Assembly: GCF_008245225.1 (NCBI RefSeq)
Contig: NZ_VTAW01000001.1
Coordinates: 124,001-188,000, forward strand
Direction of reading: 5' to 3'
DNA from: Natrialba swarupiae
GTDB taxonomy: Archaea > Halobacteriota > Halobacteria > Halobacteriales > Natrialbaceae
DNA: 64,000 nucleotides
The notes under the pieces were generated by a model. It did no database searches and was not told the origin of the DNA. It worked only from the letters and a program-made list of their open reading frames with translations. Made by a program: the position numbers and the translations under genes. Shown one piece after another: positions 6,187-19,525 of this stretch; within the stretch, counting starts at the first letter, position 1; every line of letters begins with the position of its first letter.

Positions 6187-7092
6187 TCAGGCGTCGGGCA
6201 CCGAATCGCGTCGGACGCGTTCGGCCCGGAGCACCGACAGGTCGTCGTCGGCCGTGAGTCGGAGCTCCGCCTCGTCGACGCGGTACGTTATCTCGTACTC
6301 GCCTTCCCCAACGCGCTCGCTCTGCCAGTCGCCGGACTCGAGGCGTTCTATCAGGTCGCGAAAGCCGAGCGTGCGGATGTCGATCCCGTTGTCCCAGTGA
6401 AAGCCCATCGACGCGGGGTGGGTCGCGAGCCAGATCGAGGGCGGCCCGTGGACGACGCGCCAGCACTGCCGGCAGCGCCCGCGAACGGACCACTCGAGGA
6501 CGCTGCCGGCGTCCCTGTCGTGAAACTCGAGGTCGATGGCGCCGCCACATTCGTCACAGACGTTCTCGCGAAACTGCCAGAACAGCGCCATCCTGCCGGC
6601 TTTCGCACTCGCCAGCAGCGACTCCGGATCGCGGTCTCGGATCTGTGCCGGCGTCACCTGTATTCCGTCCATCCGCCGGCCACAGTCGTCACACTCCCGA
6701 AGCAAGGCGAGATCGTCGACGACCACCTGAAGTGCCTCGGCGTCACAGAAGGGACACTGTCCGTCGACGTCGACTGGCTCGAACTCGACGTCCCCGGCGT
6801 AGGCACCCGACAGGAAGAGACGAACGATGGACTCGCCCGCGAACGTGAACTGCCACCCCTCCTCGGTGTGACGAAGGTACGTCCCGTCGAGTTTCTCTAA
6901 GTGGTAGGACAGCTGTGAGGTCGAGTCGATCTCGACTCGCTCGTAGACGTCGGAAAACGAGAGCACTGGCATCGGTTCGTCGGTGCCGAGTTCGACGCGA
7001 TCGAGCGCCTCCGCGAACGCCCGGAGGATCGCGATGCGCGTCGGGTCCGCGAGGACGCCGAAGGCGTCGGCGGCTTCTTCCTCGTTCGGCAT
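6187..7092 (-). CDS. ArsR-type winged-helix regulator with zinc ribbons
   Basis: A 301-residue protein. Residues 1 to about 85 form an ArsR-like winged helix: AFGVLADPTRIAILRAFAEA, then SQLSYHLEKLDGTYLRHTEE as the recognition region. Next are Cys pairs typical of haloarchaeal zinc-ribbon regulators (CPFC, CDDC, CDEC, CRQC) and a C-terminal alpha/beta part that may sense a ligand. I start at the ATG at 7092 (MPNEEEAADAFG); the 21 codons upstream are not acidic and look non-coding. It is probably autoregulated or controls neighbours such as the membrane protein at 5136. The palindromes at 6080-6169 are candidate sites, but that link is only positional. Confidence 0.8.
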   Translation of the reverse strand: MPNEEEAADAFGVLADPTRIAILRAFAEALDRVELGTDEPMPVLSFSDVYERVEIDSTSQLSYHLEKLDGTYLRHTEEGWQFTFAGESIVRLFLSGAYAGDVEFEPVDVDGQCPFCDAEALQVVVDDLALLRECDDCGRRMDGIQVTPAQIRDRDPESLLASAKAGRMALFWQFRENVCDECGGAIDLEFHDRDAGSVLEWSVRGRCRQCWRVVHGPPSIWLATHPASMGFHWDNGIDIRTLGFRDLIERLESGDWQSERVGEGEYEITYRVDEAELRLTADDDLSVLRAERVRRDSVPDA

Positions 7093-7306
7093 ATAGCCGT
7101 GTTCCGCGGGAGGACCTATTATACCGTCGGACAGCAGTATTTGTACACCGGTCACTCTACTGGGGCCGTCATCTTCGGGGACGCCCGCGAGTTCGCGACC
7201 GACTTCTCACTGACTTCTGTCCGACAGTATCGTGTTCGTCCGTGCGGGACCCGTTACAGCCGGCCGTCACTGCCCACTCCAACGATCCGTCGCCAGTCGA
7301 CCGACA

Positions 7307-7313
7307 GTATAAG
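7307..7313 (+). promoter_or_regulatory. TATA element of mtaD
   Basis: GTATAAG lies centred 30 nt before the ATG at 7340, the distance expected for a leaderless or very short-leader transcript in haloarchaea. Confidence 0.45.
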
Positions 7314-7339
7314 GCGTCCCGCTCGAGAACGGCTACGCG

Positions 7340-8632
7340 ATGACGACGCTCTCGATCACCGGCGGACGGGTGTTGGGCCCGGACGCGACAGTAACGCGTG
7401 CCGACGTGCTTGTCGACCAGGATACCGGCGAGATCGTCGCGATCGGGGACGACCTCTCCGGCGAGGAGACCCTCGACGCGTCGAACGCGCTCGTGACGCC
7501 CGGATTCGTCAACGGTCACTCACACGTCGCGATGACGCTCCTGCGAGGACACGCCGACGACAAACCCCTCGATTCCTGGCTCCGCGAGGACATCTGGCCC
7601 GTCGAGGCCGAACTCACCGCCGAGGATATCCGTATCGGAGCCGAACTCGGCGTCCTCGAGATGATCAAGTCGGGGACGACGGCCTTCTCGGACATGTACT
7701 TCGAGGTCGAGGAGATCGCCGACGTCGTCGACCAAGCGGGCGTTCGAGCGCTGCTCGGCTTTACCGCGATCACCGTCGGGAAAGACGACGAGGGGGCACG
7801 CGCCGACATGGAAGAGAGCCTCGAGATCGCTCGGAAACTCGACGGGAGGGCGGACGGCCGGATCAACACGACGTTCCAGCCCCACTCGCTGACGACCGTA
7901 AGCGAGGCGTACCTCGACGAGTTCGTCCCCAAGGCCCGCGAGGCCGGCGTCCCGATCCACTTTCACGCGAACGAGACGGTAAACGAGGTCGAGCCGATCG
8001 TCGACGAACACGGCGTCCGCCCGCTCGAGTATGCCACAGAGAGGGGGCTGCTCGAGCCCGAGGACTTCATCGCCCACGGCGTCCACGTCGACGAGCGCGA
8101 GATCGAGTTGCTCGCCGAGACCGACGCGAGCGTGATCCACTGCCCGGCCTCGAACATGAAACTGGCGAGCGGGATGGCCCCCGTCCAGAAATTACTGGAT
8201 GCGGGCGTGACGGTTGGGCTGGGGACCGACGGCGCGGCGTCGAACAACGACCTCTCGATGTTAGACGAGGCTCGTGACGCGGCGATGCTCGGCAAACTCG
8301 CCGCGGACGACGCGACCGCGGTCACCGCCGAGACCGTCGTTCGGATGATGACGCAGGGAAGCGCCGACGCGCTCGGACTCGACTCCGGCCAACTCGAGGA
8401 AGGCGCACCCGCCGACCTCGCCGTGATCGACCTCGAGTCGCCACACCTGACGCCACGTCACGATCTCGTGAGCCACCTCGTCTACGCGGCCGCGGCGTCG
8501 GACGTCAGACACACCGTCTGCGACGGGCAGGTGCTCATGCGCGACCGTGAAGTTCTCACACTCGAGGAGTCGGCGGTACTCGAGCGAGCACAGGAGGCGG
8601 CGGTGGCGCTGGTGGGTCGGGCCGACGGCTGA
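7340..8632 (+). CDS. mtaD: 5-methylthioadenosine / S-adenosylhomocysteine deaminase
   Basis: A 430-residue amidohydrolase. The metal motif HxH is in TPGFVNGHSHVAMTLLRG (about residues 60-75). Later ligands are in IHFHANET (His), SVIHCPASNMKLASG (His) and VGLGTDGAASNNDLSML (Asp), all intact, as in the MTA/SAH deaminase and chlorohydrolase family. It would convert SAH to S-inosylhomocysteine, and methylthioadenosine or adenosine to their inosine forms. In methanogens the related DadD feeds an AhcY-type enzyme that splits S-inosylhomocysteine. Here ahcY is 10 kb away, which makes that route plausible. The stop codon is followed immediately by repeat copy B. Confidence 0.88.
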   Translation: MTTLSITGGRVLGPDATVTRADVLVDQDTGEIVAIGDDLSGEETLDASNALVTPGFVNGHSHVAMTLLRGHADDKPLDSWLREDIWPVEAELTAEDIRIGAELGVLEMIKSGTTAFSDMYFEVEEIADVVDQAGVRALLGFTAITVGKDDEGARADMEESLEIARKLDGRADGRINTTFQPHSLTTVSEAYLDEFVPKAREAGVPIHFHANETVNEVEPIVDEHGVRPLEYATERGLLEPEDFIAHGVHVDEREIELLAETDASVIHCPASNMKLASGMAPVQKLLDAGVTVGLGTDGAASNNDLSMLDEARDAAMLGKLAADDATAVTAETVVRMMTQGSADALGLDSGQLEEGAPADLAVIDLESPHLTPRHDLVSHLVYAAAASDVRHTVCDGQVLMRDREVLTLEESAVLERAQEAAVALVGRADG

Positions 8633-8713
8633 GACGGATTGCTGTCTCGATCTTCCGGCACACCCGCCCTACGGCTCGTGGTTGTGTCGGCGCTGACGGG
8701 CAGGAAACCGTAC
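8633..8713. repeat. 81-nt hairpin repeat, copy B
   Basis: Starts on the base after the mtaD stop codon with GACGGATTGCTGTC and ends with AAACCGTACG. The inner arms CCGGCACA and TGTGTCGG form an imperfect pair. It lies between the convergent mtaD and serA genes, where a transcription-terminating hairpin would make sense. It is more degenerate than copies C and D but has the same length as A and C. Confidence 0.55.
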
Positions 8714-8761
8714 GAGGGTAAACCGCCTCGAGTGAGAACCTCGATCGTCCGATCCGATCGG

Positions 8762-10405
8762 CTACAGCTGTACTTCGTCGACGGCGTGAATCTCGTCGAT
8801 ATCTAGCAGGTCCTCGTACGTTTCCGGTGTGGGCTCCGTGTCGATTACGATCACCATGATCGCTTGACCACCGATCGTCTCCCGGCTGTTGTACATGCCG
8901 GCGATGTTGATACTGTGCCGGCTGAGGATCGATCCGACGTGGCCGATAACGCCTGGCTCGTCGCTCCCTTTAAACAGGAGCATGTGTGACTCGAGGGGAA
9001 CGTCGACGCGATGCTGTCCGATCCGAACGAGCGTCGGCGTCGAGTCTCCGAAGACGGTCCCGGCGACGACCTGCTCGTCGCCGTTTCCGGTCCGGCCCGT
9101 GATTTTTATCAGGGAAGTGAAATCGTAGTCGACGTTCGTCGACTGTTCGACGACCTGGACGTTCCGTTTCTCCATGAGCCGCGAGGCGTTGACGATGTTT
9201 ACCTGTCTGCCGAGGATCGGCGACAGATAGCCGGTCTGAACGGCCCTGGTGATCGGCTCAGTGTCTGCATCGGCGACCTCCCCGCTGTACGCGATCTCGA
9301 GTTCCTCGACGCGTTCGTCGACGATCTGGGTGAGCACCTGCCCCAGTTTCTCCGAGAGATCGACGTACGGGCGGATATGCTCGGATTCGAGTGACGGGGC
9401 GTTCAGTGCGGTCGACGCCATCTCGCCGTTCAACACGGCGAGCACCTGATCTGCGATCGTCGTCGCGACCCCCCGCTGGGCTTCCGTCGTCGACGCACCG
9501 AGATGGGGTGTCGTGAGTACGTCGTCTGACTGCACGAGGGGATTATCCGGATCGGGGGGCTCTCGTTCGAAGACGTCGATCGCTGCCCCGCCGATTTCGC
9601 CCGATTCGACGGCTGCCGCCAGTGCGTCTTCGTCGATAACGCCACCGCGAGAGGCGTTTACGACGTGTGTCGTCTCTTTCATCGCTTCGAACTCCGACGC
9701 ACCGAGCAGATGGTGCGTTTCGTCGGTGTGTGGCGTGTGAACCGTTATGAAGTCCGCTCGTTCGACGACGTCGTCGAACGAACAGAGCTCACCACCGACG
9801 CTTTCGACGGGTTCCGGGCCGACGAACGGATCGTACGCGACGATGTCCATGCCGAGTGCGTTCGCGCGTCTCGCGACTTCGCTGCCGATTCGACCGAACC
9901 CGACGACACCGAGCGTCTTTCCTCGGATCTCCGTTCCGACGTACTCCGATTTGTTCCAGTCTCCCTCTGAGAGGTCGCTATCCGCTTGCGAGACGTTTCG
10001 TGCACTCGCCAGCAAGAGCGTAAGCGCGTGCTCTGCCGCTGCGACCGTGTTCGCTTCGGGTGCGTTCGCGACGATGACGCCCGCGTCGGTTGCCGCCTCG
10101 ATATCGATGTTGTCGACGCCGACACCTGCTCGTCCGACGATCTTGAGGTTCCCCGCCGCATCGATAAGCGATGCCGAGACGTCGGTTCCGCTACGGACGA
10201 CCATCGCATCGTACTGGTCGATTACCTGGTGCAGTTCGTCCGACGATGCGTCGGTCCGAACGGTGACGGCACACGACTCTCTGAGTTGTTCGAGCCCTGC
10301 TTCTGCGATCGGATCGCAGATCAGAACCTGCGGTTGCTCCTGTGATCCCGCGAACTGATCGGTGACTGTGGGGTTTTCTCCCCCTGCCGGTTGATCAGAT
10401 TGCAT
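8762..10405 (-). CDS. serA: D-3-phosphoglycerate dehydrogenase
   Basis: A 547-residue protein for the first step of serine synthesis (3-phosphoglycerate to 3-phosphohydroxypyruvate, NAD+). An N-terminal tail of about 27 residues precedes QVLICDPIAEAGLE. The Rossmann motif is LGVVGFGRIGSEVARRA, and the catalytic Arg, Glu and His lie in NASRGGVIDEDAL, IDVFEREPPD and TPHLGAST. An intervening domain and a C-terminal ACT domain (MLLFKGSDEPGVIGHVGSIL) complete the long SerA type, which is often serine-regulated. It begins 7 nt after trpB ends, so the two are one operon. The context suggests that its serine feeds TrpB. The N-terminal tail is longer than usual and is the only oddity. Confidence 0.92.
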   Translation of the reverse strand: MQSDQPAGGENPTVTDQFAGSQEQPQVLICDPIAEAGLEQLRESCAVTVRTDASSDELHQVIDQYDAMVVRSGTDVSASLIDAAGNLKIVGRAGVGVDNIDIEAATDAGVIVANAPEANTVAAAEHALTLLLASARNVSQADSDLSEGDWNKSEYVGTEIRGKTLGVVGFGRIGSEVARRANALGMDIVAYDPFVGPEPVESVGGELCSFDDVVERADFITVHTPHTDETHHLLGASEFEAMKETTHVVNASRGGVIDEDALAAAVESGEIGGAAIDVFEREPPDPDNPLVQSDDVLTTPHLGASTTEAQRGVATTIADQVLAVLNGEMASTALNAPSLESEHIRPYVDLSEKLGQVLTQIVDERVEELEIAYSGEVADADTEPITRAVQTGYLSPILGRQVNIVNASRLMEKRNVQVVEQSTNVDYDFTSLIKITGRTGNGDEQVVAGTVFGDSTPTLVRIGQHRVDVPLESHMLLFKGSDEPGVIGHVGSILSRHSINIAGMYNSRETIGGQAIMVIVIDTEPTPETYEDLLDIDEIHAVDEVQL

Positions 10406-10412
10406 AACTGAA

Positions 10413-11582
10413 TTATGCCAGATACTCGTTGGCGATCTTTTCGACGTCTTTGTCGCCTCGTCCGCTCAGGTTCACGAGGAGGACGTCGTCCTCGTCCATA
10501 TCCTCGGCCACCTGCTTTGCAAGAGCGACGGCGTGACTCGACTCGAGGGCGGGGACGATACCCTCGTACTCACAGAGGTCCTGGAAGGCCTCGAGTGCGT
10601 CTTCGTCGACGACACCGTGGTACGAACATCGGTCGGTTTCGCTGTAGTTTGCGTGTTCCGGTCCGACACCGGGGTAGTCGAGTCCGGCAGCGACGGAGTG
10701 GACTTCGACGTCGTCGTCGATTACCCGGGTCCGCATTCCCTGATACACCTCTTCTTTTCCGCTCGAAAGCGGTGCGGCGTGCTGGCCGCTGTCGAGACCT
10801 TTCCCGGCCGCCTCTGCGCCGTGGAAATCGACCTCTTCGTCGTCGTAGAACGGGTGGAACAGTCCCATCGCGTTCGATCCGCCACCGACACAGGCAACGG
10901 CAGCATCCGGTAGCGCCCCCTCTTGCTCGAGGATCTGTTCCCGTGCTTCCTCGCCTATGACCGACTGGAAGTCACGGACCATCCGTGGCCACGGGTCCGG
11001 ACCGACGACCGATCCGACCAGATAATGGGTGTTGTCGAAGTTCTCGATTAAGTCTTCCAGGGCCGCATCGACCGCGTCCGCGAGTCCGGCACCGCCACGC
11101 GTGACCTCGTTGAGGGTTGCCCCCATCTGCTCCATCCGGAAGGCGTTCATCTGCTGGCGCTCGACGTCCTTTTTCCCCTGGTAGATCTCGGTTTCGAGGC
11201 CCGTGAGCGCACCGACGATCGCCGTCGCCGTTCCGTGTTGGCCGGCACCGGTCTCGGCGATCAGCCGTTCTTTCCCCGCGTGTTTCGCCATCAGCGCCTG
11301 GCCGAGCGCGTTGTTGAGTTTGTGTGCACCACCGTGCATCAGATCCTCTCGTTTGAGGTAGATTTTCGCCCCGTACTTTTCGGAGAGGCGTGATGCGTGG
11401 TAAAGCGGCGTTGGCCGTCCGGCGAAATCGCGAAGTAGTTCGTCTAGCTCCGCTTGAAATTCGTCATCGTCTTTGACACGGTCGTACTCGTCGGCGAGAT
11501 CCGCGAGCACATCCTCTAGCGGTTCTGGAACGTATCGTCCACCGAACTGCCCGAACGTCTGCTGGGAGTTATCAAGGGCCAT
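10413..11582 (-). CDS. trpB: Tryptophan synthase beta chain, stand-alone
   Basis: A 389-residue PLP enzyme joining indole and L-serine to make tryptophan. The PLP lysine is in [13 protein letters not shown], the catalytic Glu in [13 protein letters not shown], the phosphate loop is GGGSNAMG, and SGRGDKD closes the active site. Everything needed for catalysis is present, and the N-terminus ([20 protein letters not shown]) is of the TrpB1 type that pairs with TrpA. No trpA or other trp gene is in the window; the partner is serA. I start at the ATG at 11582 (MALDNSQQT) rather than the frame's upstream Met, because a strong TATA box sits 27 nt before it. It may be a second copy for indole salvage; that needs the rest of the genome. 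Confidence 0.92.
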
Positions 11583-11605
11583 AATATGACTCCATGTGCA
11601 TATCA

Positions 11606-11613
11606 TATATAAA
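11606..11613 (-). promoter_or_regulatory. TATA element of the trpB-serA operon
   Basis: TATATAAA on the plus strand reads TTTATATA on the minus strand, centred 27 nt before the trpB ATG at 11582. Transcription would start at or next to the start codon (leaderless). Confidence 0.6.
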
Positions 11614-12027
11614 TCTGCGTCAACATTGGTGGATCTTTACTTTCAACAGGGGCCAGAACTGTTCGTTGTTTACCGGAGTCCGGCAAAAGTTGACAACGAT
11701 CCTATATACTGCAGTGTCGGTACGTCAGGTGGGACGCTGCCACGTCGGACTCGTCGACGGGGGCCGCTTGAACGATCGGGCGCTCGCGAGAAGCCCACGC
11801 TGGCGGATCAGCAACGATCTCGTCGAATACTGCGCTTTGGGACGTACTCAACGGCGGAGTCGTTGCGGTCTTCACGCCCCTCGCCTGCACTGATGTATGA
11901 AACCGACGCCTACTGTGTGGGTTCGCTCACCAGACGACGATCGAGTTGTCACTGAGTAGTGGGTGCCTACTCGAGGGTAGTATTTCATCGTTCTGAGAAA
12001 TATAGGAAAGATTCCATATTACCCTGG

Positions 12028-12036
12028 GATATATTA
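12028..12036 (+). promoter_or_regulatory. TATA element of the amidase-like gene
   Basis: GATATATTA is centred 30 nt before the ATG at 12062, which fits a leaderless or near-leaderless transcript. AAGTTATAG at 12045 is too close to serve. Confidence 0.45.
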
Positions 12037-12061
12037 CGAATGCTAAGTTATAGCGGGACGC

Positions 12062-13150
12062 ATGTCACGGATCGAAAAATACATGGCTGTCGGCCTTTCG
12101 CCGACTGTCTGGGGCGCTGAAGAACGAAGCGACATTCAAAAGAATCTAGATCATATCCATGAAACTCTCTCGGCGGCGACGTGGTTGAGCGGTGTCGATC
12201 TCCCGGTCAAACTCGCGGTAATCCCCGAGGGGGGGCTCCAGGGGTTTACCGACGAAATAATGGATATGGATCACACCGAGTATCGCGAGAATATCGCGAT
12301 CGACATCCCCGGCGAAGAGACGGATACCCTCGGTGAGTACGCAAAGGAGTTCGATATCTACATCGTCGCCTCGGCCAAGGAGAAATCACCGGAGTACGAG
12401 GACAAGTTCGTCAACACTGCGTTCGTCATCGATCCGAACGGGGACGTCATCCTCAAACACCGGAAGAACACGCCCCTGCTCCCGGTCGAACGATCGGTAG
12501 CGCCCCACGACGTCTGGGACGACTGGGTCGAAGAAAACGGGAAGGATCTCGATTCGTTTTTCCCGGTCGTCGATACCGACATCGGGCGGATCGGCATCTC
12601 GCTCGCTATCGAGGGAGCGTACCCCGAATACGCCCGCGGCCTCGCTATGAACGGTGCCGAGGTCGTCTGTCGAATCGCGTGCCCCGAACCGCTCGTCGCG
12701 AACGAAGCCTGGGAGATCCAGAACAAGGCCCGGGCTCTCGACAACAGTATGTACGTCGTGGCTCCGAACCTCGGGACCTACTATCTGACGCCCGACACGG
12801 AGACGCCGGTCGACACGTTCGGCGGCGGATCGATGATCCTCAACCACAAAGGAAAGACGATCTCCGAACACGATTACGGCGGCGGCTCGTCGTACTGTGC
12901 CGGCGTCATCGACATCGAGGGACTTCGCGAGTTCCGGTACCGATCGCCGCTGATGAACTGGATGAAAGATCTCCGGACCGAACTCTGTGAGGTCGTGTAC
13001 GATCGCGAACTGTACCCCAAGAACCTCTGGCTCGATCGAACGCCGGTCAAACACGACGAATACGAGGAAGAAGTGACTGAAAAGCGAATCGAGGATATGG
13101 TCGAGAAAGACATCTGGGTGCCACCCTACTGGGAGCGGTCCGACGAATAG
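12062..13150 (+). CDS. Amidase-like nitrilase-superfamily protein lacking the catalytic cysteine
   Basis: A 362-residue carbon-nitrogen hydrolase-fold protein, most like aliphatic amidases (AmiE). The active-site Glu is E56 (AVIPEGGLQGF), the Lys K135 (LKHRKNTPLL) and the second Glu E143 (LPVERSV). At the nucleophile position, where AmiE reads LIICDDGNYPE, this protein reads SLAIEGAYPE: residue 182 is Ala (codon GCT, 12605-12607). The downstream block LAMNGAEVVCRIACPEP still follows the amidase pattern. Without the Cys the normal acyl-enzyme chemistry cannot occur, so it may be a binding or regulatory protein or use another chemistry. It leads a cluster with a LIV-type importer of the kind that serves amides, urea or branched amino acids, and is divergent from trpB-serA. 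Confidence 0.85.
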   Translation: MSRIEKYMAVGLSPTVWGAEERSDIQKNLDHIHETLSAATWLSGVDLPVKLAVIPEGGLQGFTDEIMDMDHTEYRENIAIDIPGEETDTLGEYAKEFDIYIVASAKEKSPEYEDKFVNTAFVIDPNGDVILKHRKNTPLLPVERSVAPHDVWDDWVEENGKDLDSFFPVVDTDIGRIGISLAIEGAYPEYARGLAMNGAEVVCRIACPEPLVANEAWEIQNKARALDNSMYVVAPNLGTYYLTPDTETPVDTFGGGSMILNHKGKTISEHDYGGGSSYCAGVIDIEGLREFRYRSPLMNWMKDLRTELCEVVYDRELYPKNLWLDRTPVKHDEYEEEVTEKRIEDMVEKDIWVPPYWERSDE

Positions 13151-13224
13151 CTGGGACAGTGTCGCGGGAACGATCGGTAATGACAATATACCGATAAAAT
13201 CTCCATTTTAGCTGAATGTAGGCG

Positions 13225-13281
13225 CTAAGCCCCCGTCCTCAAGGAGCCGCCACCAGCGGCGAGTAGGTAGGGGTAGTTCAC
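13225..13281 (+). mobile_element. Scar of an IS200/IS605 (IS1341-type) element end
   Basis: The stretch AAGCCCCCGTCC..GTAGGTAGGGGTAGTTCAC, with a GCCGC-CACCA-GCGGC hairpin at 13246-13260 and distant CCCC/GGGG pairing, matches from memory the right ends of haloarchaeal tnpB-carrying IS1341-type elements. The right end of such elements also encodes the guide (omega) RNA scaffold. No tnpB or tnpA remains nearby. It sits in the 341-nt gap between the amidase-like gene and the transporter genes, so an element probably inserted there and decayed. A second inverted repeat (ACCCGTGG 13351-13358, CCACGGGT 13371-13378) follows. Confidence 0.5.
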
Positions 13282-13491
13282 ACGAGGATCACGGCGCGAC
13301 AGATCCGCTCGGTGGATCAGCAGACTATCAATGTAAGTGACGTATTCGATACCCGTGGCTGACGACGTGACCACGGGTGACGAAATCAAGTCCTGTGTGC
13401 CAGGAGTTTTCACAGGCGTACATTTGTGTCGGTCAATGAGTCCATGGATTCGGTGAAGCTTTATTGATGATGGTGAGACTGTACCAATACA

Positions 13492-14643
13492 ATGGTTAAC
13501 AGGAGGCATGTAATCCAGGCGACAGCACTCGCCGGCGTCGGTACCATCGCCGGCTGTATGGGTGGGTTCGACGACGAATACCAGCGGACGATCGGAATGC
13601 CGACCCCACAGTCGGGTCCACTCGCCACCGACGGCGAGGCCGGACTCCGGGCATCGGACGTCGCAATCGCGGAGATCAACGAAGAACTGGACGAGGAAAT
13701 AACACTCGAGCAACAGGACGGTGAAGCGAACCCGGAGATCGCACTCGGCGTCGCACGTGATCTGAACGACGAGGGGGTGCCAGCCATTACGGGAACGTTC
13801 TCGAGTGACGTCTCGATGGCGCTCAGCGACTTCGCCGAGAACGAAGAGATACCGTTCATGACGGCCATCTCCGTCGATCCGGAAATCGTCGAGCCGGGCG
13901 ACGACTACACGTTCCGGATGACCGGAAACACGACACAGAAGCTACGAGGAATGTCGGAGTTTCTCGAGCAAGAGGACGTATCGGGGATCGGTGTCATCGC
14001 GGCTGACTACGCGATGGGGCGATCCGCAGTCGAATTCATGGAACAAGAGGCTGGCGACTACGGGATGGATCTGGTGTCCGACGCCGTCGTTCCGATGGCG
14101 ACCGACGATTTCACCCCGGAGCTACAGGGAATCGACACCGACGAGATAGACGCACTCTTTTGTCCGTTCCCCGGCGGGAACGGCCCGACGCTCGTCCGAC
14201 AGATGCGCGAGCAGGATATCTTCGAGGAGGTCGATATCGTGATCGGACACGACTCGTACGGAATGGAAGCCTACCGGGACGCGCTCGGCGATAATCTCGT
14301 CGATATGTACAACTGGGGGGTTGACCTCGAAAACGAGCGTGCCAGACAGGCATCCGAACGAATGCAAGAGGAGTTCGGCGTTCGCATGGACGCGCTTAGC
14401 CTCCCCAACTACGACGCGGTTCACATGTTGGCTCAGGTAATCGACGAGCAGGATTCGCTCGACCCACAGAGCGTCCGGGACGGTCTCGCGGAGATCGAGT
14501 ACGAATCGGCGTCGGGCTGGGACGTCAGCTTCGACGAGAACGGGGACAACGAGGCCTTCCAGATGATCGTTAGCAGATGGGAGCAAGATGGTGACGAGAT
14601 GAGAAACGTCGTCCAGTATACGAGCGACGTCGTCGAGCCGTAA
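13492..14643 (+). CDS. livK: LIV-type ABC transporter substrate-binding lipoprotein
   Basis: A 383-residue periplasmic-binding-type protein. MVNRRHVIQATALAGVGTIA with GC next gives a Tat signal and a lipobox Cys at residue 22, so it is a lipid-anchored receptor outside the membrane. The mature part follows the type I (Leu/Ile/Val) fold: IGMPTPQSGPLATDGEAGL, GVPAITGTFSSDVSMAL, GIGVIAADYAMGRSAVEF. This family also includes amide (AmiC) and urea (UrtA) receptors; the ligand is not readable. CTTTATT at 13459-13465 is a TATA-like element 30 nt upstream. It is the first of five transporter genes spaced 13 nt or less or overlapping. The symbol is by family only. Confidence 0.85.
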   Translation: MVNRRHVIQATALAGVGTIAGCMGGFDDEYQRTIGMPTPQSGPLATDGEAGLRASDVAIAEINEELDEEITLEQQDGEANPEIALGVARDLNDEGVPAITGTFSSDVSMALSDFAENEEIPFMTAISVDPEIVEPGDDYTFRMTGNTTQKLRGMSEFLEQEDVSGIGVIAADYAMGRSAVEFMEQEAGDYGMDLVSDAVVPMATDDFTPELQGIDTDEIDALFCPFPGGNGPTLVRQMREQDIFEEVDIVIGHDSYGMEAYRDALGDNLVDMYNWGVDLENERARQASERMQEEFGVRMDALSLPNYDAVHMLAQVIDEQDSLDPQSVRDGLAEIEYESASGWDVSFDENGDNEAFQMIVSRWEQDGDEMRNVVQYTSDVVEP

Positions 14644-14656
14644 CTACGAGACTTCC

Positions 14657-15376
14657 ATGAAGCAGGTACTAACGTTGGAAAATGTAACGAAGACGTTCGG
14701 TGGCATCGTCGCGCTCAGTGAGTTCGAGGGGTCCGTCGAGGAGGGCGAGATCACCGGACTTATCGGGCCAAACGGGGCGGGGAAGACGACACTGTTCAAC
14801 GTGATTACCGGGGTTCTCAGTCCCGATTCGGGCACGGTCCGCTTTCGAGGCGAGGACGTGACACAGGACAGTCCACATCGGATCTGCCGGAAAGGAATTG
14901 CACGAACGTTTCAGACACCCAAACCCATTGGTTCTCTGACAGTTGAAAAGAACCTGCGAGCAGCGTACCGGTTCGGCGAACCCGATCCAGCCGTCAGCGA
15001 AGAGGAACGGTACCAGCAGACGCTCGATCTCTTCGACCTCCGGGAGAACGAGGACGTCCGCGCCGAGAACCTACAGCTGATCGAACAGAAACACGTTGAC
15101 GTGGGCCGAGCGTTGATGTCCGACCCCGCGTTGTTGTTGCTCGACGAGATAATGGCAGGCCTCACGCCGACGGAGAAAGTCAACATGTGTGAGACGATCG
15201 AACGGATCAACAGCGAGTTCGACATTTCAGTACTGCTCATCGAACACGATCTGAAACGGATCCGGTCGATTTCGGACACGATCATCGCGATGAACGACGG
15301 ATCGCACCTGCTGACCGGCACCCCAACGGAGGTGTTAGCAAACGATGGACTCCGAGAAGCATACATCGGAACGTAA
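14657..15376 (+). CDS. livG: LIV-type ABC transporter ATPase LivG with a degenerate signature
   Basis: A 239-residue ATPase of the importer. Walker A (GPNGAGKTT, residues 37-45), Q-loop (TFQTPKPIG), Walker B (LLLLDEIMAGL) and the H-loop (LLIEHDLKRI) are intact. The ABC signature, normally LS[Y/G]GQ, reads LQLIEQ at residues 139-144 (from 15071), so the Ser and Gly that contact the partner's ATP are gone. In the LivG-LivF dimer this would impair the site made with LivF's Walker A and leave one good site, as in asymmetric ABC exporters. The gene starts 13 nt after the receptor gene and overlaps livF by 32 nt, which couples translation. Confidence 0.85.
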   Translation: MKQVLTLENVTKTFGGIVALSEFEGSVEEGEITGLIGPNGAGKTTLFNVITGVLSPDSGTVRFRGEDVTQDSPHRICRKGIARTFQTPKPIGSLTVEKNLRAAYRFGEPDPAVSEEERYQQTLDLFDLRENEDVRAENLQLIEQKHVDVGRALMSDPALLLLDEIMAGLTPTEKVNMCETIERINSEFDISVLLIEHDLKRIRSISDTIIAMNDGSHLLTGTPTEVLANDGLREAYIGT

Positions 15377-16082
15377 CGCCCTCGAGGCGAACGAGATCTC
15401 GGCCGGATACGGTGAAGCACAGGTGCTTCGAGATCTCTCTTTCGAGTTACAAGAGGGGGAAATACTGTCGATCGTCGGTCCGAACGGCGCTGGCAAGACG
15501 ACGCTGATGCGCGTTCTCATGGGATTGATCGGACCGACGAACGGATCCGTTCGGCTTTACGGCGATCAGATAACCGATTTACCGGCGCACGAACGTCTCG
15601 GTCACGGGTTGGCACTCGTTTCTGAGGAGCGAAACTTGTTCCGAGAGATGTCTGTGAAAGAAAATCTAGTGATGGGTTCGTACTCCGAACGTGGAAAGAA
15701 TCGAGGCGAACGACTCGAGCGCGTTTTCGATCTGTTCCCGCGCCTCGAGGAACGCCAGGACCAGCATGCGGGTACTCTCAGTGGTGGCGAGGCACAGATG
15801 CTCGCCATCGGGCGAAGTCTGATGACCGACATCCGAATTCTCATGCTCGACGAACCGTCGCTCGGACTCGCACCGAAGCTAGTGCCGGAACTGTTCGATA
15901 AGATACGGGAGATCAACGACGACGGAATATCGATCGTTCTCGTCGAACAACGCGCACAGGAGGCGTTACAGCTCGCGGATTCGGGCTGTCTTCTCGAGAA
16001 CGGGGCGATCGTTCACCGTGGTGCGGCGGCGGAGATGCTCGACGACGAGGACGTGATAGAAAAGTATCTCGGAGGTGCGTGA
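15345..16082 (+). CDS. livF: LIV-type ABC transporter ATPase LivF
   Basis: A 245-residue ATPase with a complete set of motifs: Walker A GPNGAGKTT near residue 46, signature TLSGGEAQMLAIGRSL, Walker B ILMLDEPSLGLAP and H-loop IVLVEQR. It is the partner of LivG and supplies the intact signature of the pair. The ATG at 15345 lies inside the end of livG. A later start near ALEANEISAGYG would remove a short hydrophilic tail but has no better ribosome-binding site. The 3' end contains the ribosome-binding site for livH. Confidence 0.88.
   Translation: MDSEKHTSERNALEANEISAGYGEAQVLRDLSFELQEGEILSIVGPNGAGKTTLMRVLMGLIGPTNGSVRLYGDQITDLPAHERLGHGLALVSEERNLFREMSVKENLVMGSYSERGKNRGERLERVFDLFPRLEERQDQHAGTLSGGEAQMLAIGRSLMTDIRILMLDEPSLGLAPKLVPELFDKIREINDDGISIVLVEQRAQEALQLADSGCLLENGAIVHRGAAAEMLDDEDVIEKYLGGA
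16071..16077 (+). promoter_or_regulatory. Ribosome-binding site deciding the livH start
   Basis: GGAGGTG lies inside the end of livF, 6 nt before the ATG at 16084. This favours that ATG over the in-frame GTG at 16075, which is itself part of the Shine-Dalgarno sequence. Confidence 0.7.
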
Positions 16083-16083
16083 G

Positions 16084-16956
16084 ATGGTCGTCTCGATCGA
16101 ACAGCTCGTGTTTATCGTCGGAAACGGGCTGATCTTCGGAAGTATCCTCGCTCTGGTTGCAGTCGGCCTCTCGCTGATCTTCGGCGTTCTCGACGTTCCG
16201 AACTTCGCCCAGGGTGAGTTTGCCAGCGTAACCGGGTTCGTGATCGTCGGACTGGTCGGGTTGGGTATCGGGCTGGTTCCGAGTATTATCGCGGGAATCG
16301 TCTTTGCCTTCGTCGCGGGCGTCGCAGTCGAGAGATTGGTGATCTCGAAGTTCTACGGCCGTGATGAGTTCCTCCTGTTGACGTTCTTCGCGACGTTCGG
16401 TATCACGATAATCTCGGAGAACGTCTTACGTCAGATGTTCGGCGGCTTTCGACAGATACCGGGCCCGGACATTGGAAGCATTGTCGTCGCGGGCACGTCG
16501 GTGAACTTGCTTCGTCCCGCTGCCGGCGCAATCGCAGTGGGGATGCTCATCGGACTCTACATCTTCACCCGTTACACGTACATGGGGTTGGCGATGCGTG
16601 CGGTCGCTGACGACCGCCGCGGTGCCGAGATGATCGGCGTAAACTACGAGCGCATCTACATGCTTACGTTCGGTATCGGAGCCGTCCTCACCGGCATATC
16701 GGGCGTTCTCTACGGAATGTTGTTCACCCTCTCGCCGACGTCGGGCGTCGCCCTGACGGCGTTCGCGTTTACGATCGTCGTCGTCGGTGGCGTCGGTAGT
16801 TTCTTCGGAACGATTCTCGCGAGTCTGTTGATCGGTCTCGTGGATAGCTTCACCGCGACGATGGTCGGCAGCAGGTGGCGATTCTTCGCGATCTTTGCCG
16901 TTCTGTTCATCGTACTGGTTCTCCGACCCGAGGGACTGCGAGGTGGTAGCACATGA
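16084..16956 (+). CDS. livH: LIV-type ABC transporter permease LivH
   Basis: A 290-residue membrane protein with about eight hydrophobic segments and the LivH pattern: SILALVAVGLSLIFGVLDVPNFAQGEF near the N-terminus (shown in part by GVLDVPNFAQGEF) and AVADDRRGAEMIGVNYERI as the EAA-type coupling loop that contacts the ATPases. The segment TIVVVGGVGSFFGTILASLL is the usual C-terminal signature. It starts 1 nt after livF and overlaps livM by 4 nt (ATGA), so the permeases are translationally coupled. Confidence 0.88.
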   Translation: MVVSIEQLVFIVGNGLIFGSILALVAVGLSLIFGVLDVPNFAQGEFASVTGFVIVGLVGLGIGLVPSIIAGIVFAFVAGVAVERLVISKFYGRDEFLLLTFFATFGITIISENVLRQMFGGFRQIPGPDIGSIVVAGTSVNLLRPAAGAIAVGMLIGLYIFTRYTYMGLAMRAVADDRRGAEMIGVNYERIYMLTFGIGAVLTGISGVLYGMLFTLSPTSGVALTAFAFTIVVVGGVGSFFGTILASLLIGLVDSFTATMVGSRWRFFAIFAVLFIVLVLRPEGLRGGST

Positions 16957-17933
16957 GTCGCTTCGAAATGCTCGAGCGAATGGTTGACAATCGGTTGTTC
17001 GACACGATCAAGGCACACCAGACGACGATCGGTGCCGTCGTCGTTGCGATCGCAGTGTTGATCCCGTTTTTGGTCCCCTCGGCGCTCCTATTCGACCTGA
17101 CGCTGGTTTTCATCTACGGGATGCTCGCTTTCTCTGCGATCCTCCCGATCGGGTACGCGGGTCAGTTGATCCTCGCACAGGGCGCGTTCTTCGGCGTCGG
17201 TGCGTACTCGTTCGTCAAGCTGACCGAGGCCGGTCTTCCGCCCGTCGTAGCGATTCTCGTCGCGACGGTGTTCACTGGGGTGGTGGCGTATCTCTTGGGG
17301 AAGCCCGCCACGCGGGCGAGTGGCATCTACCTCGGCATCATCACCCTGGCGTTCAACGAGCTGTTCGTCAACTTCCTCGAGCTGTTCCCCGACTTCACGG
17401 GTGGTAGTACGGGACTCTCCGCGCCCTCGCTGTTCCCCTCGGTTATGACCGGTATGATCCCGGGTGACGTCCTGTACTACTACCTCCTGTTGCTCGTCTA
17501 CATCGGGACGGTCGTTTTCTTTTACCGGTTACTTCACTCCGAGTTCGGCTGGGCGCTACTGACGATCAAGGAAGATCCCGTCCTGGCCGAGTCGATCGGG
17601 ATCGACGCACAGCGGTACCGCTTGCTCTCGTTTACGTCGGCTGGACTCATCTGTGGGCTTGCCGGAGGTCTCTTCGCACCGTTCAACGGCTACCTCTCTC
17701 CGCCGATGTTCGACTTACACCGCACGATCGACATCATTCTCGCCGGGGTCGCCGGCGGGTTGACCACGCCGATCGGTAGCATCTTCGGTGGGTTGATCGT
17801 CGTGCTCGTGCCGGAGGTCCTCCGCTTTATAGCCGAAATTAGACTAATTATCTACGGGGTATTGCTCATCCTGTTGTTGATGTACCTTCCCGAAGGGATC
17901 GGCGGCTGGCTCAGAGAGAAGTGGGAACAGTAG
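16953..17933 (+). CDS. livM: LIV-type ABC transporter permease LivM
   Basis: A 326-residue permease partner of LivH, with about nine hydrophobic segments. Diagnostic pieces are PIGYAGQLILAQGAFFGVGA, IYLGIITLAFNELF, and the coupling loop TIKEDPVLAESIGIDAQRYR. The end, LRFIAEIRLIIYGVLLILLL, is typical of LivM, the last permease gene of such operons. It closes the operon; no ATPase or enzyme gene follows on this strand before ahcY, 260 nt on. Confidence 0.88.
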   Translation: MSRFEMLERMVDNRLFDTIKAHQTTIGAVVVAIAVLIPFLVPSALLFDLTLVFIYGMLAFSAILPIGYAGQLILAQGAFFGVGAYSFVKLTEAGLPPVVAILVATVFTGVVAYLLGKPATRASGIYLGIITLAFNELFVNFLELFPDFTGGSTGLSAPSLFPSVMTGMIPGDVLYYYLLLLVYIGTVVFFYRLLHSEFGWALLTIKEDPVLAESIGIDAQRYRLLSFTSAGLICGLAGGLFAPFNGYLSPPMFDLHRTIDIILAGVAGGLTTPIGSIFGGLIVVLVPEVLRFIAEIRLIIYGVLLILLLMYLPEGIGGWLREKWEQ

Positions 17934-18193
17934 CCGCTCGTTCCGCTTTCGGGCGTATTTCCGAGTTCGCTCTTCCTATCGGCTCTGTGCAACCACCGCT
18001 TTCGGTGGAATGCTTCGACAGCCTCTCTCATCTGGTATTTTGGCGTTTCGCTGGCGTACCACTCGATGGGTTTGTCGACCGATTCCCCGTCGATGGGTTT
18101 TGCCAGTCTGCCTAACGCGTCACAGAGACGTCTTCGAGTCGTCGCCGCATCCGCTTCGGTACCGTTTTGGCTCCGGTCTCCGTCTGTCGAGGC
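17934..18193. other. Gap before ahcY with a decayed minus-strand reading frame
   Basis: About 260 nt. On the minus strand a stretch reads through phrases such as KPIEWYASETPKYQMREAV, which look protein-like and unlike the surrounding shadows. It could be a fragment of a transposase, but I cannot name the family. There is no start codon or complete domain. The ahcY promoter must also lie here; CCGTTTTGG near 18163 is the only weak candidate. Confidence 0.3.
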
Positions 18194-19525
18194 ATGACCG
18201 ACACGTACCCGCCGATCAGCGATCAGCTGGACGACCTCGAGTCCGCACAGGAGGAGGGCCGGCGCAAGATGGAGTGGGCCGCCCAACACATGCCGATCCT
18301 CGAGGTCGTCCGCGAGGAGTTCGTCGACGACCAGCCCTTCGAGGGCGAACGCATCGCGATGGCGATGCACGTCGAGGCGAAGACTGCCATCCTCGTCGAG
18401 ACGCTCGCCGACGGCGGCGCGGAGGTGGCCGTCACCGGCTGTAACCCGCTGTCGACCCACGACGACGTGAGCGCGGCACTCGACACCCACGAGAACATCA
18501 CCTGCTACGCGAAACGCGGCGTCGACGACGAGGAGTACTACGCCGCCATCGAGGCCGTCATCGCCCACGAGCCGACGATCACGGTCGACGACGGGATGGA
18601 CCTCGTCGCCGCGATCCACGAGGACTACCCCGAACTGATCGACGGCATCGTCGGTGGGGCCGAGGAGACCACCACCGGCGTCCACCGTCTGCGCGCGATG
18701 GACGACGACGGCGCACTCGAGTACCCGGTCTTCGCGGTCAACGACACGCCGATGAAACGGCTGTTCGACAACGTCCACGGCACCGGTGAGTCTTCGCTGG
18801 CCTCCATCGCCATGACCACGAACCTCTCGTGGGCCGGCAAGAACGTCGTCGTCGCCGGCTTCGGCTACTGCGGCAAGGGCGTCGCCCGCAAGGCCACCGG
18901 CCAGAACGCGAACGTCATCGTCACCGAAGTCGAGCCCCGCCGGGCGCTCGAGGCCCACATGGAGGGCTACGACGTGATGCCCATGTCGGAAGCCGCCGAG
19001 GTCGGAGACGTCTTTCTCACCACGACGGGCAACCGCGACGTCATCGTCGAGGAACACTTCGAGCGGATGCAAGACGGCGTCTTGCTCGCCAACGCGGGCC
19101 ACTTCGATATCGAGATCGATCTCGAGGCACTCGACGGTCTCGCGGTCGACCGCTACGAGGCCCGCGACGGCGTCGAGGCCTACGAAATGGCGGACGGCCG
19201 CCGACTGAACGTCATCGCCGAGGGGCGACTCGTCAACCTCGCCGCGCCCGTCTCGCTGGGCCATCCAGTCGAAGTGATGGACCAGAGCTTCGGCATCCAG
19301 GCGGTCTGCGTGCGCGAACTGGTCGAGAGCGCGGAGCCACGCTCCGCGAACGCAAGCGGCGATGAGCCGCGAGCAAGCGACGAGTACGGCCCGGGCGTCC
19401 ACGACGTCCCCGACGACCTCGACAAGGAGATCGCGGAGATCAAACTCGCAGCCGAGGGCGTCGAGTTCGACTCACTGACCGACACCCAGCGCGAGTACAT
19501 GGGTAGCTGGGACCACGGAACGTAG
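18194..19525 (+). CDS. ahcY: S-adenosylhomocysteine (or S-inosylhomocysteine) hydrolase
   Basis: A 443-residue NAD-dependent hydrolase splitting SAH-type thioethers into homocysteine and nucleoside. Family marks are AMHVEAKTAILVETLADGGA, the active-site strand VNDTPMKRLFDNVHGTGESS and the NAD site VVVAGFGYCGKGVARKATG. The Lys/Tyr-rich C-terminal extension of bacterial and eukaryotic enzymes is absent (it ends GSWDHGT), as in archaeal forms. Together with mtaD it may act on S-inosylhomocysteine. An in-frame insert of about 16 residues (EPRSANASGDEPRASDE), encoded by two DNA hairpins, interrupts the end of the NAD domain. The ATG at 18194 precedes TDTYPPISDQL; nine upstream codons in frame are unlikely. 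Confidence 0.9.
   Translation: MTDTYPPISDQLDDLESAQEEGRRKMEWAAQHMPILEVVREEFVDDQPFEGERIAMAMHVEAKTAILVETLADGGAEVAVTGCNPLSTHDDVSAALDTHENITCYAKRGVDDEEYYAAIEAVIAHEPTITVDDGMDLVAAIHEDYPELIDGIVGGAEETTTGVHRLRAMDDDGALEYPVFAVNDTPMKRLFDNVHGTGESSLASIAMTTNLSWAGKNVVVAGFGYCGKGVARKATGQNANVIVTEVEPRRALEAHMEGYDVMPMSEAAEVGDVFLTTTGNRDVIVEEHFERMQDGVLLANAGHFDIEIDLEALDGLAVDRYEARDGVEAYEMADGRRLNVIAEGRLVNLAAPVSLGHPVEVMDQSFGIQAVCVRELVESAEPRSANASGDEPRASDEYGPGVHDVPDDLDKEIAEIKLAAEGVEFDSLTDTQREYMGSWDHGT
19331..19370. repeat. Two tandem hairpins inserted in frame in ahcY
   Basis: GCGGAGC-CAC-GCTCCGC (19331-19347) and GCGGC-GATGA-GCCGC (19356-19370) are perfect inverted repeats in a segment that other AhcY proteins lack, judged against the family pattern from memory. 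The encoded low-complexity peptide (EPRSANASGDEPRAS) keeps the frame. It looks like a small palindromic element that entered a coding gene. Confidence 0.55.

Follow-up and report, generated by a model that had tools for sequence, protein, structure and literature searches.

A stand-alone trpB with serA, an amidase-like gene and a LIV-type importer on a putative mobile island of the haloarchaeon Natrialba swarupiae

Gene content of the locus

The locus considered here lies in a 64,000-nt stretch of the genome of Natrialba swarupiae (NCBI RefSeq assembly GCF_008245225.1, contig NZ_VTAW01000001.1, positions 124,001 to 188,000), which was analysed whole and is referred to below as the window. It contains two divergent gene groups, one encoding a tryptophan synthase beta subunit (TrpB) and a D-3-phosphoglycerate dehydrogenase (SerA), and the other an amidase-like protein without its catalytic cysteine (the pseudo-amidase) together with an importer of the leucine/isoleucine/valine (LIV) type. 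We argue that the two groups belong together, on a mobile island which may make tryptophan from an outside precursor. An earlier note on this DNA, made from its letters alone, had named these genes; all proved complete, and their positions and order stand:

8633-18166: extent of the inserted island, between an amidohydrolase gene (7340-8632) and an adenosylhomocysteinase-like gene (18167-19525)
8762-10405, minus strand: serA, an extra, diverged D-3-phosphoglycerate dehydrogenase of 547 aa with intervening and ACT domains
10413-11606 (likely start ATG at 11582), minus strand: trpB, encoding a stand-alone beta subunit of tryptophan synthase, leading gene of the trpB-serA operon
11583-12061: divergent intergenic region, 479 nt, 52% G+C
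12062-13150, plus strand: amidase-like CN_hydrolase protein (pseudo-amidase), PF00795, catalytic Cys replaced by Ala182
13492-14643, plus strand: livK, LIV-type substrate-binding lipoprotein, PF13458 at 171.9 bits
14657-15376, plus strand: livG, ATP-binding cassette (ABC) ATPase, PF00005, LivG-type best match NF008449, under its cut-off
15345-16082, plus strand: livF, ABC ATPase, PF00005, LivF-type best match NF008626, under its cut-off
16075-16956, plus strand: livH, permease, PF02653
16953-17933, plus strand: livM, permease, PF02653

The two minus-strand genes form an operon with a 7-nt gap. The 479-nt promoter region of the earlier note is recovered when it is counted from an internal ATG at codon 9 of trpB, which is taken as the start because homologous alignments begin there. 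This region has an AT-rich stretch on its trpB side (CATATATAAAT) and, upstream of the amidase-like gene, an imperfect inverted repeat at 11974-11993 and 12006-12025 (AGGGTAGTATTTCATCGTTC / GAAAGATTCCATATTACCCT), a possible operator. Comparison with the upstream regions of related clusters gave no conserved sequence or common promoter motif.

Seven of the twelve Natrialbaceae genomes checked have orthologs of both flanking genes at a spacing of 1.0-1.3 kb, separated by a small gene for a secreted protein (the 1.5-kb flank read in the remaining five showed no amidohydrolase). The empty flank arrangement is also present in a congener (genome G119), whose trpB, LIV and amidase-like genes are on another contig. 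Within the window, most of the island has a G+C content of only 57-60%, counted in 2-kb windows, against ~65% around it. That the flanking genes are adjacent in relatives and that G+C drops across the block supports its insertion, trpB-serA, amidase-like gene and importer, as a unit. At L100-L108, the site of the island holds a rapidly varying small secreted-protein gene with a conserved NNPGNAP-like motif.

An extra TrpB of TrpA-independent type and its SerA

The TrpB of the window belongs to the TrpB1 type, scoring 545.8 bits against TIGR00263 (cut-off 392.45), and not to TrpB2 (TIGR01415, 167.6 bits, cut-off 518.85). In the residue numbering of S. typhimurium, where K87 is the lysine that binds pyridoxal phosphate (PLP), the alignment has the catalytic residues H86, K87, E109, Q114, H115, D305 and S377 intact, and the same seven are retained when 32 stand-alone TrpBs of haloarchaea are aligned (the Asp305 motif pattern is unmatched in one, L042). 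At the TrpA-contact positions K167, N171 and R175, the window protein has A, D and E, and the canonical TrpB of its own genome has K, N and R. All 32 stand-alone proteins have A at the first position, D at the second and a residue other than R at the third. Thus neither the adjacent trpA nor the contact residues of a TrpA-coupled synthase are found here, and by its sequence the window TrpB is an extra, catalytically intact beta subunit of a TrpA-independent type. The 'Res6' stand-alone residues of the last bacterial common ancestor (LBCA) enzyme (PMC11917138) were also considered as the cause of stand-alone activity; about two of the six match in a hand-read alignment, and they were not used.

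The earlier note saw neither trpA nor any other trp gene, which is correct for the neighbourhood and incorrect for the genome. The single trpA of the genome lies off the window contig, on contig C37, beside a canonical trpB with ~54% identity to the window TrpB over the best segment. This trpBA pair rules out a trpCBA operon in which the window trpB would be the only beta subunit. Contig C39 has a second full-length serA, of canonical type and 46% identical to the window SerA, with serB ~5 kb away. Given the canonical trpBA and the second serA elsewhere, the trpB-serA pair of the window is extra. Its SerA has both the score (TIGR01327, 618 bits, cut-off 454) and the full domain set (PF02826, PF19304, PF01842) of a D-3-phosphoglycerate dehydrogenase, and is predicted to be one.

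In the TrpB tree, the window protein groups with those of G119, Natrinema and three kynurenine clusters of Haladaptatus (support 100/100). A second clade of eight (100/97) consists solely of TrpBs linked to indoleamine 2,3-dioxygenase (IDO) or to clusters of the kynurenine type. Extra trpB genes ~70% identical to that of the window are common in haloarchaea, usually with different neighbours. The clade of the module TrpBs is set on a long separate branch (0.39), and the canonical TrpBA already makes tryptophan in this genome; both would suit an explanation in which TrpB and SerA make another beta-substituted alanine from serine, with an acceptor that the LIV system takes up and the pseudo-amidase binds. 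The pyruvate-dehydrogenase-like E1/E2 and PLP-synthesis genes of related clusters also favour it. However, every TrpB catalytic residue checked is unchanged, Glu109 and Asp305 included, and the score is far over the TrpB equivalog cut-off, so that we regard this other product as improbable.

The pseudo-amidase and the importer

The description of the amidase-like protein as inactive in the earlier note agrees with the alignment, in which the catalytic Cys of formamidase falls on Ala182, and Glu56, Lys135 and Glu143 are retained; loss of hydrolytic activity is predicted. The protein is a clear CN_hydrolase (PF00795, 103 bits against a gathering score of 23.2) with formamidases as its best relatives in the PDB. 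It scores 83.7 bits against a formamidase cut-off of 406, stays far under every amidase/nitrilase equivalog, and does not have the Glu-Lys-Cys triad of an active nitrilase-superfamily amidase. Structure models made with AlphaFold from shallow alignments were too poor to use (mean predicted local distance difference test score 48 for the pseudo-amidase and 42 for LivK).

Of 391 haloarchaeal genomes, 10 have the gene (76-100% identity), that of the window included, and one further genome has distant relatives only (33-37%). Alanine replaces the cysteine in all haloarchaeal members (in L038 by alignment), in members from Archaeoglobi (70%) and Hadesarchaea (66%), and, among bacteria, in the homologs of Tsukamurella plasmid 13 (47%) and Flammeovirga (41%). 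Archaeal pseudo-amidases, from three lineages, are 66-92% identical to the window copy and bacterial ones 41-47%; among 59 genomes of the Archaeoglobi class no further member was found. A separate group (92/95) is formed by relatives that still have the cysteine, those of Paracoccus, Streptomyces, Sinorhizobium, Arthrobacter and a second Tsukamurella plasmid; the Ala group is not resolved on the pseudo-amidase tree.

On plasmid 13 of Tsukamurella tyrosinosolvens (L127:8980-10071), the Ala homolog sits in a putative catabolic cluster of indole/anthranilate type. Its neighbours encode subunits resembling indolepyruvate oxidoreductase, a PF04199 cyclase, a benzoate-CoA ligase family protein, RidA, and a salicylyl-CoA 5-hydroxylase at 1198 bits, over its cut-off. 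Isatin hydrolase and kynurenine formamidase have the fold of the PF04199 family. The alpha subunit of the oxidoreductase is under its equivalog cut-off, and hence its substrate is uncertain. We take this cluster as a hint, second and independent, of an indole/anthranilate connection.

Other neighbourhoods of amidase-like genes were also seen. In genome G207 (L034), there are two CN_hydrolase genes (7066-8106 and 11795-12910), one with the catalytic Cys and the other with Ser; genes for an aldehyde dehydrogenase and an ABC ATPase and a racemase/decarboxylase-like gene share the cluster. Four genomes (L030-L033), all from a single genus, have the pseudo-amidase beside a hemC-like gene of haem biosynthesis and, in three, a hemL-like gene. 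In an Archaeoglobi genome (L037:8508-9773 / L087:2216-3478), the gene for a LivK-like binding protein and the pseudo-amidase gene are divergently arranged, and no importer genes were seen next to the former; the LivK-like protein was considered as an ortholog of the window LivK and dropped at just 23% identity.

The importer is complete, with a binding protein, two ATPases and two BPD_transp_2 permeases, as in LIV or hydrophobic amino acid uptake transporter (HAAT) systems. Its proteins reach none of the curated model cut-offs for Urt or E. coli-type Liv. The best PDB sequence matches of LivK are 4ey3, 4eyg and 4eyk (E 1e-15), which are probably aromatic-acid binding proteins.

Recurrence of the gene set

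The earlier note treated the two divergent halves as one module. This is borne out by recurrence of the set in two other places, Natrinema gelatinilyticum and, with the genes in a different arrangement, G119, along with the insertion of the block in the window as one piece. Across 242 haloarchaea and 72,556 plasmids, the LIV subfamily of the window was found at three loci only, those of the window, G119 and N. gelatinilyticum (the first two from one genus, all three from one family). Identity of livK to the window copy is 64% in G119 and 56% in N. gelatinilyticum, the next matches reaching at most 34%. All three loci have an adjoining amidase-like gene and a nearby TrpB of one clade, and in two of them (window and N. 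gelatinilyticum) a diverged serA follows trpB directly, both times with a 7-nt gap; these two SerA proteins group together (support 100/99).

The N. gelatinilyticum genes are on a plasmid and are 50% (serA), 74.5% (trpB), 82% (pseudo-amidase) and 53-68% (LIV) identical to those of the window. Their LIV operon is opposite in orientation, and the cluster also has genes for a pyruvate-dehydrogenase-like E1a/E1b/E2 2-oxoacid dehydrogenase. In G119 (trpB 86%, livKGFHM 58-70%, pseudo-amidase 84%) the order is IDO, aminotransferase, trpB, pdxS, esterase, serC-like, livKGFHM, amidase-like, serA, serB, all within 30 kb. In Halostagnicola sp. A56, the amidase-like gene (92%) is beside serC-like and serB genes. 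Common content in an altered order suggests that selection keeps the set together, though all three loci are from one family.

Alternatively, chance may have brought onto one island two accessory functions that have nothing to do with each other, namely an extra operon for tryptophan and serine and an importer of amides or amino acids accompanied by a pseudo-amidase. Each half is found alone in most genomes, and LIV importers with amidase-type neighbours are generally known as a kind (Fmd and amide importers). We nevertheless think coincidence unlikely, as the same components occur at three loci in differing gene orders, another genus included, and the LIV subfamily was found at no other place. 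The earlier note had named unlinked halves in relatives as a finding that would speak against it; such separation is seen for the broad families, though the LIV and SerA subfamilies specific to the module do not show it.

Tryptophan-catabolism clusters around related trpB genes

IDO is encoded in 18 of the 391 haloarchaeal genomes, 12 of which also have a stand-alone TrpB. In nine of these 12 (G043, G047, G101, G119, G250, G263, G297, G361 and G366) the two genes lie within 12.2 kb of each other. Random placement in a 4-Mb genome would give each link a chance of <1%, a figure that is not a p-value because the genomes are related. The linkage is seen in two TrpB clades. Such clusters include a kynureninase (TIGR01814, 358 bits, cut-off 246), a LipP1-like hydrolase and a member of the benzoate-CoA ligase family. 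Four genomes (G250, G263, G297, G361) have a LIV importer of another subfamily beside TrpB.

The fullest form is on Haladaptatus plasmids (L123, L124, L125). Directly before trpB are genes for a benzoate-CoA ligase family protein, a two-domain enzyme resembling salicylyl-CoA 5-hydroxylase, and RidA, along with the beta-oxidation genes for acyl-CoA dehydrogenase, MaoC, short-chain dehydrogenase/reductase and enoyl-CoA hydratase; after it come kynureninase (KynU), a hydrolase and IDO. The two-domain enzyme has the architecture of 2-aminobenzoyl-CoA monooxygenase/reductase. Judged from their predicted proteins, the clusters appear to encode tryptophan breakdown by IDO, kynureninase and 2-aminobenzoate-CoA ligase, with a 2-aminobenzoyl-CoA monooxygenase-type enzyme in Haladaptatus. 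Tryptophan-degradation clusters enclosing a stand-alone trpB were also seen at L046, L050, L081, L082, L084, L085 and L086.

The island could be a pared-down version, or one that depends on a partner, of a haloarchaeal route for indole catabolism via tryptophan, in which TrpB would fix indole with serine, and IDO, kynureninase, a formamidase-like esterase, 2-aminobenzoate-CoA ligase and 2-aminobenzoyl-CoA monooxygenase would degrade the product. In its favour are the full or partial TrpB clusters of Haladaptatus, G043, G047, G101, G250, G263, G297 and G361, the adjacency of IDO and TrpB in G366, the two separate TrpB clades, and the importers beside TrpB in four genomes. However, the window genome has no IDO, and the window has no match to IDO, kynureninase, CoA-ligase or monooxygenase (kynureninase, tryptophan 2,3-dioxygenase (TDO) and tryptophanase were not searched for genome-wide). 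The pairing of IDO or TDO with kynureninase near trpB, which marks a kynurenine-pathway cluster, is therefore missing from the window. One serine per indole would also be costly, and such clusters could simply degrade tryptophan. We hold catabolism via tryptophan to be a possible explanation of the island, though a rather doubtful one.

Proposed function of the island

We put at about even the chance that the locus is a mobile accessory island making tryptophan from an indole-type precursor obtained outside the cell. SerA would supply serine, with SerC and SerB encoded elsewhere in the genome, and TrpB would join it to an indole-type acceptor, yielding tryptophan or an analogue of it. The LIV importer would take up a polar precursor or an aromatic or amide compound, which the Cys-less amidase may bind as a sensor, carrier or non-hydrolytic enzyme; a receptor role for the dead amidase is a guess. 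In relatives, tryptophan from such TrpBs probably feeds a kynurenine/2-aminobenzoyl-CoA route. With IDO missing from the window genome, the route here more likely ends in tryptophan or in another branch, of which the 2-oxoacid dehydrogenase of the Natrinema cluster is a possible example.

Several points weigh against tryptophan synthesis from an imported precursor, beginning with that lack of IDO. Indole crosses membranes by diffusion, so the importer must carry something other than indole, and transport of an indole-type compound or an amide by it is conjectural. Most genomes with the pseudo-amidase have it without LIV, trpB or serA, and most stand-alone trpB genes have no adjoining serA or LIV genes, which means that each can work alone. 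In G119, trpB and serA do not share an operon, and the serA nearby is of canonical type. Lastly, the module SerA is fast-evolving and may not be a serine maker.

More broadly, haloarchaea may have a horizontally moving form of indole assimilation via tryptophan, using a TrpA-free TrpB and dedicated serine, with the tryptophan burned through kynurenine, anthranilate and 2-aminobenzoyl-CoA. The Cys-to-Ala amidase, shared with bacteria, would serve it as a dedicated partner without hydrolytic activity, binding or converting an indolic or anthranilic compound taken up by the matching LIV importer. We offer this larger scheme tentatively and think it rather unlikely to hold as a whole.

Comparison with known systems

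Salvage of indole by TrpB has been described in Thermococcus kodakarensis, by TrpB1/TrpB2 (Hiyama et al., 2014, as cited in PMC11085991), and in Bifidobacterium (PMC11085991). In these organisms, as is proposed for the window, TrpB makes tryptophan from outside indole and serine; the window TrpB differs in being an extra copy, of TrpB1 and not TrpB2 type. In neither organism are the salvage genes known to us to be linked to serA, a LIV importer or a pseudo-amidase. The suggestion of the earlier note that this was a salvage system not known before does not hold for indole salvage by a stand-alone TrpB as such and does hold for the gene combination. Neither the combination nor the Cys-to-Ala group was found reported in the open-licence literature.

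The characterised, naturally stand-alone TrpB1 of Pelodictyon luteolum, plTrpB (PMC11917138), likewise has the catalytic Asp, is encoded outside the trp operon and is uncoupled from TrpA. However, plTrpB relies on the Res6 residues, whereas the haloarchaeal proteins have lost K167, N171 and R175, and the gene neighbourhoods differ. Natronomonas pharaonis also has an extra haloarchaeal trpB1 outside the operon, recorded as an exception in the consulted part of PMC1854888, which gives neither function nor neighbourhood. Our analysis offers a likely job for this puzzling second trpB of haloarchaea.

Degradation through kynurenine and 2-aminobenzoyl-CoA is known in bacteria, according to the sections consulted of a review on indole degradation (PMC6221969), and those sections contain no indole route through tryptophan. 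The enzymes concerned are found around related haloarchaeal TrpBs, though not in the window, and the prediction follows that some haloarchaea may salvage or degrade indole by first converting it to tryptophan. The importer shares the five-gene architecture of LivKHMGF, UrtABCDE and FmdDEF and stays under the curated Liv and Urt cut-offs. With formamidase and aliphatic amidase (PDB 5g3o, 2dyu, 2uxy) the pseudo-amidase has its family and the Glu-Lys-Glu residues in common, but Ala stands in place of the catalytic Cys throughout its close group, which brings to notice a set of proteins with an active site intact save for the nucleophile.

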